Shown in pieces: positions 1,848 through 4,124 of a DNA stretch of 38,225 bases. The translations under genes and the position numbers were made by a program. Every line of letters begins with the position of its first letter. Positions within the stretch are counted from its first letter, which is position 1. This stretch comes from Candidatus Omnitrophota bacterium (lineage in GTDB: Bacteria > Omnitrophota > Gorgyraeia > Zapsychrales > Zapsychraceae), in assembly GCA_023136835.1 (NCBI GenBank), contig JAGLQN010000107.1, forward strand, positions 1 through 38,225, written 5' to 3'. Under the pieces are notes generated by a model that saw nothing but the letters and a program-made list of their open reading frames with translations, ran no database searches and had not been told where the DNA came from.

Positions 1848-1917
1848 TTGGGACAGGCTCTTTCTGTTGACGCTTTTTGCAGCAGGAACAATTTTGCCTC
1901 TTATGGCAATGATTTAA
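1840..1917 (+). CDS. 25-residue membrane micro-protein
   Basis: ATG at 1840 overlaps the end of the zinc-finger gene by 8 bases. The peptide is MDNWDRLF followed by a single hydrophobic segment (FLLTLFAAGTILPLMAMI), so it is a predicted one-pass membrane peptide. Its stop codon lies in the 5' arm of the structured RNA that follows. No clear ribosome site beyond a weak GGGAAAAG; expression would rely on coupling. Confidence 0.45.
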   Translation: MDNWDRLFLLTLFAAGTILPLMAMI

Positions 1918-2048
1918 CGAAGCGGGGCGGTGAGAATGGTGTGCCTCGACGGAGGTTATGGGGTTCGAGTCCCTTGCTGGAATGGCTACATAGGCGGTTC
2001 AATTCCGCACTCACTGACAATGTTGACGGCCAGCCCCCGTTTCGTTAA
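1914..2048 (+). ncRNA. Candidate structured RNA with two T-loop-like hairpins
   Basis: A 14-bp stem with one G-U pair (1914-1927 with 2035-2048) closes the element. Inside are a 7-bp stem with one G-U pair (1928-1934 with 2010-2016), CCTC-gacg-GAGG (1944-1955), GGG-ttcgagt-CCC (1961-1973) and GCGG-ttcaatt-CCGC (1994-2008). The last two loops carry the tRNA T-loop signature TTCRA. GCTGG (1976-1980) could also pair with CCAGC (2030-2034). The inner 90 nt resembles a long-variable-arm tRNA at its ends, but no D arm can be drawn, so it is not called a tRNA. Pairings were read by eye, not computed. Confidence 0.5.
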
Positions 2049-2300: not shown

Positions 2301-2438
2301 ATGGAAATTATCGGATATTACGTCATGCTTGGCCTTGGTGCTGGTGCAGTTGGTACTGTTGTCGGCCCGTCAAGAACAGCAAAAATCGTGGGTTTTTGTG
2401 GTGTTCTTTTACTTGTTTTCGCGCATAAAATCCTATGA
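2301..2438 (+). CDS. Small two-segment membrane protein, 45 aa
   Basis: ATG at 2301 follows GAGGGAGAGAG. The peptide has two hydrophobic stretches (YYVMLGLGAGAVGTVVG and IVGFCGVLLLVFAHKIL) joined by PSRTAK, so it is a predicted hairpin membrane protein. Its TGA overlaps the helicase ATG (ATGA), so translation is coupled to helicase. Function not recognised. Confidence 0.6.
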   Translation: MEIIGYYVMLGLGAGAVGTVVGPSRTAKIVGFCGVLLLVFAHKIL

Positions 2439-3808
2439 AAGACTTACCGCCACATAATCTACAAGCGGAGCAGACCCTCTTAGGCGCAATTCTAACGGAT
2501 AATGAAGTTATGGAACGGGTCGCTGAGTACCTTCTCCCGCATCATTTCGCCATGCCAGAACACGGCATATTATACGACAAATGCAAGCAACTAATTGACG
2601 AAAATCAAACCGCTAATACCATAACCCTAGCCGCCTCATTGGCTGATGAACTCCCCACTGTTGGCGGTGTAGAATACCTTGCACAACTTATGGGGTCAGC
2701 CGTTACCATTATCAATTCCGGCGAATATGGGCGGATAATCTACGACCTTGCCCAAAAACGCGAACTCATTCACCTATCCGAGTATATCGCAGAATCAACG
2801 AGAACACAAGCTGAACATTCAGAGATTATCGAAACGGTTGAGCGCGAACTAACCGCCCTGACTGACGACAATTCGCATGATGTTAGCACCCCCAAAAGCC
2901 AGATGGGGTTGGCAATAGCTAATATTGAAGCAGCTTTCAATGGTGACATTCCTCCGGGTCAAGAAACTGGCTTGACTGACCTAGACAACATATTAAGCAG
3001 ATTGCGCGATGGAAGTGTGTATGTTATCGGTGCTAGACCATCAATGGGTAAATCAGTACTTGCCTTGCAAATAGCCGAGAAAATATCCGAAACAAAACCA
3101 GTTTCCTTTTTTAGCTTGGAGATGCCAGCAGAAGAATTACAGGAACGGCGCATTTCAACCCATGCCAATATCAGTTACGAGGCCTTGCGGGCTGGGACAA
3201 TAACCTCAGACGAAATGAAACGTTCTGTGGAATCTTCCAATATTTTAGAGCAAAAACCTATGTTTGTCAACGATAAACCGGGGGTATCCGTTGAATATAT
3301 CCGCCGCCATGCTCGTAGGCAAATGCGTAAAACTGGTGTCAGGGCAGTGTTTATTGACTACCTGCAACTCATGTCTGGCGATGGTTTTAATCGGGTTGAT
3401 ATCATAGGCAACATTACTCGTGGATTAAAGACACTCGCCAAGGAGCTACGTTGTCCTGTGGTGGCTCTCAGCCAACTTAACAGGGGGGTAGAGGGCCGAG
3501 ATAGCCAAGTCCCTAGGATGTCGGATTTGAGGGAATCAGGCGATATCGAACAGGACGCAGATGTAATCGTGTTTATACATCGAGAAGAACAAAGCCTTAA
3601 TCAAAGGAAGCTGGCCATGAGAGAGGGCGAAACCACGGACAGTTTCAACAAACGACTTGACGGTCACGCCAACATGATAGCCGAGGCAAAAGGACTTGCA
3701 GACCTAATCATAGCCAAGAACCGCCAAGGCATTACAGGAATGATTGAATGTGGGTTTGATGGGGCGCATATGAAATTTACGAACATAGCACATACAGGAG
3801 AAAGATGA
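2435..3808 (+). CDS. dnaB: Replicative DNA helicase, DnaB family
   Basis: A 457-residue protein of usual DnaB length. The N-terminal domain (PPHNLQAEQTLLGAIL) matches the DnaB N-domain. The RecA-like motor has Walker A GARPSMGKS at about 199-207, SLEMP at 227-231, Walker B with D308 in AVFIDYLQL, and the later LSQLNRG and MSDLRESGDIEQDAD motifs. It would load on the phage origin and unwind DNA 5'-3' as a hexamer. No separate helicase loader is obvious; the downstream replication protein may fill that role. ATGA overlap with the membrane gene upstream. Confidence 0.95.
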   Translation: MKDLPPHNLQAEQTLLGAILTDNEVMERVAEYLLPHHFAMPEHGILYDKCKQLIDENQTANTITLAASLADELPTVGGVEYLAQLMGSAVTIINSGEYGRIIYDLAQKRELIHLSEYIAESTRTQAEHSEIIETVERELTALTDDNSHDVSTPKSQMGLAIANIEAAFNGDIPPGQETGLTDLDNILSRLRDGSVYVIGARPSMGKSVLALQIAEKISETKPVSFFSLEMPAEELQERRISTHANISYEALRAGTITSDEMKRSVESSNILEQKPMFVNDKPGVSVEYIRRHARRQMRKTGVRAVFIDYLQLMSGDGFNRVDIIGNITRGLKTLAKELRCPVVALSQLNRGVEGRDSQVPRMSDLRESGDIEQDADVIVFIHREEQSLNQRKLAMREGETTDSFNKRLDGHANMIAEAKGLADLIIAKNRQGITGMIECGFDGAHMKFTNIAHTGER

Positions 3809-3907: not shown

Positions 3908-3912
3908 AACCA

Positions 3913-3979
3913 CGTCCCCGGTCTAGAGCGTTGAACTATGCTCCACGCCGTTTTCCCTCCAGCGTGTGTACCGGGGACG
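3913..3979 (+). ncRNA. Three-way-junction RNA at the 5' end of a predicted transcript
   Basis: A perfect 10-bp stem CGTCCCCGGT (3913-3922) / ACCGGGGACG (3970-3979) encloses two hairpins: GAGC/GCTC (3926-3929, 3940-3943) and CACGC/GCGTG (3944-3948, 3962-3966). The hairpins touch each other, with three unpaired bases on each side of the closing stem. The second loop contains the pyrimidine run TTTTCCCTCC. It sits at the predicted transcription start, so it would be a leader element or small RNA. No known riboswitch core was recognised. Confidence 0.5.
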
Positions 3980-4027
3980 ACTTTATTAAATAAAACCCTT
4001 GCGGATAACTCCGTTTAATGGTACTAT

Positions 4028-4124
4028 TCAGCTCCAGCAGAGGTTTGCAAGCCTCGGCCATAATCGTTTCTCCTTCTCACGAGGGCCACGCTGGAGCTGA
4101 TTCACCCCGAGAAGGCGAGAAGGA
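4028..4124 (+). promoter_or_regulatory. Leader RNA with loop complementary to the replication gene's ribosome site
   Basis: A perfect 11-bp stem TCAGCTCCAGC (4028-4038) / GCTGGAGCTGA (4090-4100) encloses GAGG/CCTC (4040-4043, 4052-4055) and GGCC/GGCC (4056-4059, 4084-4087). The large loop of the second hairpin holds TCCTTCTC (4071-4078). This is exactly complementary to GAGAAGGA (4117-4124), the ribosome site 6 bases before the ATG at 4131. Seven bases also match GAGAAGG at 4109-4115. Pairing would form a pseudoknot that hides the ribosome site. Confidence 0.5.

Follow-up and report, generated by a model that had tools for sequence, protein, structure and literature searches.

What kind of RNA is encoded at positions 1914-2048 of contig JAGLQN010000107.1, a 38-kb phage contig in an assembly of a Candidatus Omnitrophota bacterium (GCA_023136835.1)? 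The whole stretch of 38,225 nucleotides (nt) was analysed and is called the window in the following; it carries genes for a DnaB-like helicase, a replication initiator, a portal protein and a major head protein. An original prediction had placed here a structured phage RNA resembling transfer RNA (tRNA), without a D arm, in the leader of the early region, and this was borne out. The best explanation overall, to which we assign a probability of about 0.5, is that the element is a phage-encoded, tRNA-like noncoding 'double-T-arm RNA' of a class which Rfam does not hold, and that it has a role as a mimic or decoy. We judge it very probable that the element truly belongs to a conserved class of RNAs. 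The acceptor-like character of the inner stem, which abuts T-arm 2, the presence of a T-arm at the position of the anticodon arm and the RNA class as a whole had been overlooked before. The parts of the predicted RNA are the following:

1914-1927, + strand: 5' strand of the outer clamp stem, 14 pairs with 2035-2048 including one G-U, pair probability 0.999
1928-1934, + strand: 5' strand (CGGTGAG) of the acceptor-like stem, 7 pairs with 2010-2016 including one G-U, pair probability 0.95
1935-1942, + strand: AATGGTGT, a D-loop-like GG motif, common to the relatives as A[AT]TGGTG (alignments A2 and A3)
1943-1956, + strand: P2 hairpin, GCCTC-GACG-GAGGT, pair probability 0.97
1960-1974, + strand: T-arm 1, GGGG TTCGAGT CCCT, recognized by sequence, at the position of an anticodon arm, pair probability 0.42
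1976-1980, + strand: GCTGG, possible 5' strand of a pseudoknot, 5 Watson-Crick pairs with 2030-2034
1983-1988, + strand: TGGCTA in the linker between the T-arms, with a GG motif at 1984-1985; TGG/GGCTA is common to the relatives
1994-2008, + strand: T-arm 2, GCGG TTCAATT CCGC, separated from the acceptor-like stem by one A, pair probability 0.17
2010-2016, + strand: 3' strand (CTCACTG) of the acceptor-like stem, followed by ACA, with no encoded CCA
2030-2034, + strand: CCAGC, possible 3' strand of the pseudoknot, partner of 1976-1980
2035-2048, + strand: 3' strand of the outer clamp stem, partner of 1914-1927

The pairing of the 14-bp closing stem, the 7-bp inner stem and the three hairpins, which had been proposed before, was confirmed, with one G-U pair in each of the two stems. 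Both T-loop hairpins (TTCGAGT and TTCAATT) are real, at 1960-1974 and 1994-2008, and the T-arm sequences GGGGTTCGAGTCCC and GCGGTTCAATTCCGC are those of ordinary bacterial tRNA T-arms. The tandem T-arm pattern was matched once in the window and in none of 100 shuffled sequences, and it occurs a single time in the 3.17-Mb assembly. In the linker between the T-arms of the window RNA a GG is present, and a stable hairpin was not found. The folding energy of the whole 1914-2048 stretch (-52.6 kcal/mol, z = -2.18, 4 of 200 shuffles equally good) is by itself only moderately unusual. The energy rules give no bonus for a T-loop motif or a pseudoknot, and the case for the fold is made by the comparison with relatives, not by energy.

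To place the element, the phage sequences of IMG/VR were scanned for two neighbouring T-arm sequences, and at least 254 distinct places with a spacing of 20-60 nt were found. At least 138 of the 254 listed places lie outside any tRNA reported by Aragorn (134 after removal of near-duplicates). The acceptor stem was then looked for in 59 listed non-tRNA places with a T-arm spacing of 28-36 nt; all numbers for these 59 places refer to the matches listed. A 7-bp stem abuts T-arm 2 in 23 places at offset 0 and likewise in 23 at offset 1, against about 0-4 at most other offsets (0-4 at offsets of 6 or more). This offset test is independent of the T-arm search pattern. Three loci (L135, L275 and L353), which resemble phage genes for transfer-messenger RNA (tmRNA) and were set aside by eye, are still included in the 59, so the statistics are slightly conservative. 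In these three, a T-arm and CCACCA are followed by a tmRNA-like GGTTTCGACA start. A linker hairpin of at least 4 bp is present in 44% of the places versus 18% after shuffling, 36 of 47 linker hairpins of at least 3 bp have GG in their loop, and a P2 hairpin upstream of T-arm 1 exists in 49% versus 23%. The window RNA shares with this class the two T-arms 28-36 nt apart (34 nt), the stem of at least 7 bp at T-arm 2 and the P2 hairpin. In the elbow of tRNA, G18-G19 of the D-loop adjoin the T-loop, and in the RNAs described here the GG motifs may dock the T-loops in the same manner. A description of a tandem T-arm RNA class was not found in the open-access literature of PubMed Central (PMC), subscription papers and preprints being outside the search. 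While RNAs of the general, tRNA-like kind are known, the double-T-arm class itself appears to be undescribed.

Among the matches listed, six relatives (L267, L286, L293, L295, L396 and L361) resemble the window RNA most closely in layout: an A(A/T)TGGTG-like sequence is followed by P2 and T-arm 1, then by a linker with GG and by T-arm 2. More generally, the order acceptor - GGTG - P2 - T-arm 1 - GG linker - T-arm 2 - acceptor is common to the window RNA, the IMG/VR elements L267, L286, L293, L295, L361, L354, L365, L304, L328 and L344, and an element of Pseudomonas phage Marin. Most relatives differ from the window RNA by a linker hairpin of 3-5 bp and by longer acceptor stems (7-19 bp), whereas in the window RNA a shorter acceptor stem is accompanied by a separate clamp of 14 bp and possibly by a pseudoknot. 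The GACG loop is retained on an altered stem in L344, L349, L342, L354, L293 and L437. A covariance model (R1) built from the six relatives, with the window left out, recovers positions 1926-2018 of the window with 30.9 bits (E value 2e-5).

The original prediction had proposed covariation among relatives as a check, and the compensatory changes looked for were found in the class, namely in its acceptor stem, its P2 hairpin and its linker helix. In the alignment of 23 members, 92.9% of the cells are paired versus 44-50% when the partner is slid, and each of the 10 acceptor, 2 P2 and 3 linker pairs shows two-sided changes. A clean case is offered by L295 and L396, a close pair for which no alignment fitting is needed: between them T-A is replaced by C-G in the acceptor stem, A-T by C-G in T-arm 2 and A-T by T-A in the linker hairpin.

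In 84,980 species genomes the class hardly occurs, and the exception (L396, in Cupriavidus necator) adjoins phage terminase genes. No tandem T-arm element was found in the relatives of the window's DnaB-like helicase, and among the terminase relatives only L224 has one. Matches of a TGGT pattern in genome contigs were rejected, since they were mostly ordinary tRNA-His or other tRNAs followed by unrelated T-arm-like sequence. When R1 was run on 384 genomes from the class to which the host belongs, its matches were likewise set aside; in eight of the nine loci checked with Aragorn a tRNA-Leu lies at the match, and the remaining locus, L424, is a low-complexity repeat.

Regarding the pseudoknot that had been proposed between 1976-1980 and 2030-2034, the five Watson-Crick pairs exist, but covariation is limited to two related sub-groups and does not extend to the nearest relatives of the window RNA. 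In L243, L263 and L333, a pseudoknot GCTGG/CCAGC or GCAGG/CCTGC lies at the same place as GCTGG/CCAGC of the window, and outer clamps of 14-15 bp are also present in L243 and L263. The window RNA thus combines features of the acceptor-type relatives and of this group. In the CTCG-type sub-group, the hairpin loop of 11 among 21 members pairs with a segment before UGAC; the pairings seen are GGCC/GGCC, GGCC/GGCU, UGCC/GGCA, AGCC/GGCU, UGCU/AGCA and UGUC/GACA; a pattern related to this sub-group had no match in the 84,980 bacterial and archaeal genomes. Altogether, the pseudoknot of the window RNA is plausible, not proven. The order in the CTCG sub-group (L119, L172, L184, L209, L224, L244, L247, L250, L253, L256 and L347) is T-arm, CTCG hairpin, T-arm, covarying pseudoknot partner and UGAC, after which a GGGAAAGACC-type hairpin often follows.

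Could the element simply be a tRNA? A 7-bp acceptor stem abuts a T-arm with a UUCRANY loop as in tRNA, and class II tRNAs (Ser/Leu) and tRNA-Sec (RF00005, RF01852) resemble the window RNA also in length and in the GG of the D region. Unlike a tRNA, the window RNA has an extra P2 hairpin, an outer clamp and, apparently in place of the anticodon arm, a second T-arm, it lacks a D arm and an encoded CCA, and it stays far under the tRNA thresholds. The Rfam and tRNA searches suggested by the original prediction yielded no tRNA gene in the window with Aragorn and no family at gathering score with Rfam 15; with open thresholds, the best Rfam score was 16.4 bits for tRNA-Sec (cut-off 47). Thus, the window RNA is neither a tRNA nor a member of a known Rfam family. 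The double-T-arm relatives also did not reach the gathering score of any Rfam 15 family, and what passed in their loci were true tRNAs, GOLLD, RT-15 and tmRNAs located elsewhere. The checked members of class A score about 30 bits at most (tRNA-Sec, cut-off 47) and true tRNAs in the same loci 43-56 bits, and it is these low Rfam scores which set the window RNA and its relatives apart from tRNAs.

It is improbable in our view that we are dealing with tRNA genes which have decayed or were wrongly folded or read (tRNA-Ser CGA or tRNA-Leu CAA, for instance) or with two fused tRNA remnants, even if Aragorn labels some tandem T-arm elements as tRNA-Ser(cga) or tRNA-Leu(caa) and R1 also gives scores of 28-30 bits to class II tRNAs. 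Compensatory changes along the whole acceptor stem argue for selection, not decay. Base 37 of an anticodon loop is normally a purine, and positions 1960-1974 of the window are readable as an anticodon CGA with G37. In 48 of the 59 tandem T-arm places the equivalent base 6 of loop 1 is T or C, which makes it unlikely that T-arm 1 is an anticodon arm in this class. The low tRNA-Sec scores also speak against tRNA genes of this kind. The tandem T-arm elements reported by Aragorn as tRNA-Ser(cga) are those of L258, L312, L318, L352, L362, L375 and L409. Apparently the first T-arm is taken for the anticodon arm in such calls, and some tRNA annotations of phages may be wrong.

A similar question arises for tmRNA, whose tRNA-like domain also consists of an acceptor stem and a T-arm without a D stem and carries the UCGACGG motif. 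The P2 hairpin with its GACG loop recalls the tmRNA motif UUCGACGG; TCGACGG is present in the window, and L344 has TTCGACGG. However, the window RNA has no mRNA-like domain, tmRNA covariance models do not match the window at any threshold, there is no room for a tag frame or a chain of pseudoknots, and the motif is missing from most relatives. We therefore regard a tmRNA or a tmRNA-derived RNA as extremely improbable. One phage contig (L130) has a permuted tmRNA (Rfam RF04321) at 632-963, with a tandem T-arm element some 450 nt away.

Among known phage RNAs, species 1 RNA of T4 (rnaC) resembles the window RNA in that it is a phage-encoded stable RNA with a T-arm (CCGGGTTCGAATCCCGG) at its 3' end and no evident anticodon arm. 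It corresponds to L241 1409-1547 on the minus strand (fold z = -4.57) and is annotated beside tRNA genes. It differs by its single T-arm and a long, distinct 5' domain. RNA C and RNA D of T4 were rejected as direct relatives, since the former has one T-arm and the latter none.

What could a double-T-arm RNA do? In the mechanism which we propose, the RNA, whose fold is isolated within the intergenic gap by the long outer clamp, would be made early from the leader transcript. In the manner of the tRNA elbow, the two T-loops could dock both GG motifs, and this docking may lead to a compact, nuclease-resistant, tRNA-like body which is unable to decode. More speculatively, the RNA may be a trans-acting accessory, a mimic or decoy directed at host factors by which tRNA is handled or attacked; candidate targets are tRNA-targeting defences, enzymes that modify the T-arm and processing nucleases. 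Action as a tRNA mimic in trans seems to be the most likely role because the RNA probably lacks an anticodon, has no encoded CCA and is phage-restricted, accessory and exchangeable; nevertheless, we propose it with reserve and would rather bet against it than for it. Ordinary phage tRNAs were proposed as a decoy or supplement against tRNA-cutting defence (PMC13096335).

The main rival to a role in trans is a cis-acting leader element, and here the immediate surroundings of the RNA have to be considered:

1840-1917, + strand: possible open reading frame (ORF) of 25 aa (MDNWDRLFLLTLFAAGTILPLMAMI), read from the sequence; its stop overlaps the clamp and forms the upstream border
2073-2249, + strand: ORF of 58 aa with an AGGGAG ribosome-binding site (RBS) and no PHROG match
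2259-2279, + strand: terminator-like hairpin preceding the DnaB-like helicase gene (2435-3808)

The 1914-2048 RNA occupies the gap between the stop of the putative 25-aa ORF and the RBS of the 58-aa ORF. It had been located between an early promoter and a terminator; a terminator-like hairpin lies at 2259-2279, and the promoter-like site at 1355-1384 is not above chance expectation. In a cis-acting role, the clamped fold would stabilize, insulate or process the early mRNA from a position shortly before the next RBS, be it as a 5'-end clamp, as a processing site for RNase P or RNase III or as a put-like antiterminator, and the tRNA likeness would be incidental or serve processing. Put RNA of the HK022 type causes RNA polymerase to ignore terminators. 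In favour of such a role, the outer clamp ends about 12 nt upstream of the RBS of the gene at 2073. On the other hand, the relatives are found in very different settings, namely inside a tRNA array (L354), upstream of terminase genes (L396) and between short early ORFs, which fits better to a free RNA, and acceptor stems of 10-19 bp are unlike the usual RNase P substrate. We consider the cis-acting role possible, albeit doubtful.

The cis-acting role also draws support from the D3-like phages. The element of L396 led us to Pseudomonas phage Marin, in which the fold recurs in an unannotated gap at about 14.57-14.68 kb of OR683406 (fold z = -4.68); its acceptor stem is long and continuous, and a GACG hairpin and both T-arms are present. 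The sequence directly downstream of the Marin RNA, before the next gene, is common to many D3-like phages (Detrevirus). In these phages, a site that follows a terminator and precedes the RBS of the next gene harbours folded RNA inserts of at least five kinds with one outer stem in common: a 38-nt hairpin, a 136-nt RNA in which one T-arm abuts an acceptor-like stem, two RNAs of 86 nt and 89 nt that lack T-arms, and the double-T-arm RNA of Marin. To judge from this comparison, the site behaves as a slot for exchangeable RNAs. Examples from the D3 group with the insert site before the conserved RBS are L437-L448 and L449-L512.

Several points weigh against the proposed double-T-arm RNA with a mimic or decoy role. 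Plain minimum free energy folding drops T-arm 2 in favour of an alternative pairing, the fold with both T-arms (-50.5 kcal/mol) being 2.1 kcal/mol worse. The linker hairpin with a GG loop, which most relatives possess, is missing in the window RNA. INPHARED, the own genome (beyond the copy itself) and 190 relatives yielded no close DNA homolog of the window copy. Ordinary class II tRNAs (tRNA-Leu in the 384 host-class genomes) reach 28-30 bits with R1, so that the R1 score alone does not separate the window RNA from tRNAs. Alignment A3 was fitted to the model, which favours structure, and the closing pairs of the T-arms were demanded by the search, so the covariation of the T-arm helices is partly circular. 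Finally, T-arms are absent from the inserts in most Detrevirus genomes, and all inserts are located just before an RBS; T-arms thus seem to be dispensable at this site, which favours a role in cis.

At the DNA level, the 14-bp inverted repeat ends and the nearby replication genes could be taken as signs of a palindrome which either belongs to a replication origin or represents the terminal repeats that bound a small mobile element. We judge this to be very improbable, since the element is present in a single copy in the assembly, contains T-arm sequences, G-U pairs and covariation of the RNA type, and has relatives which are not linked to replication genes.

If the double-T-arm RNA is what we propose, a widespread, conserved RNA class of tailed phages has been missed or misnamed by present tRNA and Rfam searches. 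This would bear on the long-standing question of why phages produce stable tRNA-like RNAs such as RNA C of T4. The copy in the cultured phage Marin makes expression, structure and function accessible to direct testing. Moreover, the swapping of RNAs at one D3-like site suggests that the exchangeable accessory equipment of phages includes RNA besides protein. It is tempting to go further and to propose, with clear reservations, a large unnoticed phage class of anticodon-less tRNA-like RNAs in which a T-arm/GG elbow module is repeated, so that there are two or three T-arms and in some RNAs also pseudoknots. These RNAs would be cassettes exchanged at fixed sites and would serve against host systems which recognize or cut tRNA; some 'tRNA-Ser(CGA)' annotations would then be such RNAs.

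RNAs with three T-arms were observed in L257, L261, L266, L276, L285, L298, L310, L335 and L348. Their third T-arm often follows AATAGGG-TAGCT-CCCGCC and resembles the module of P2 and T-arm in the window's class. A hairpin-like motif AAGCCGG...AGCACCGGCC recurs near the RNAs of L113, L125, L131, L247, L267, L293 and L295, and in L293 a long run of GGGTACGG/GGGGACGG repeats is located upstream of the element.

Two further compact RNAs with closing stems of 10-11 bp are located at 3909-3981 and 4026-4105 of the window, between the helicase and the replication initiator genes. T-arms were not found in either of them. Their folds (z = -4.55 and -5.16, respectively) were not equalled by any of 200 shuffles, and they may be additional RNA cassettes of the window phage.
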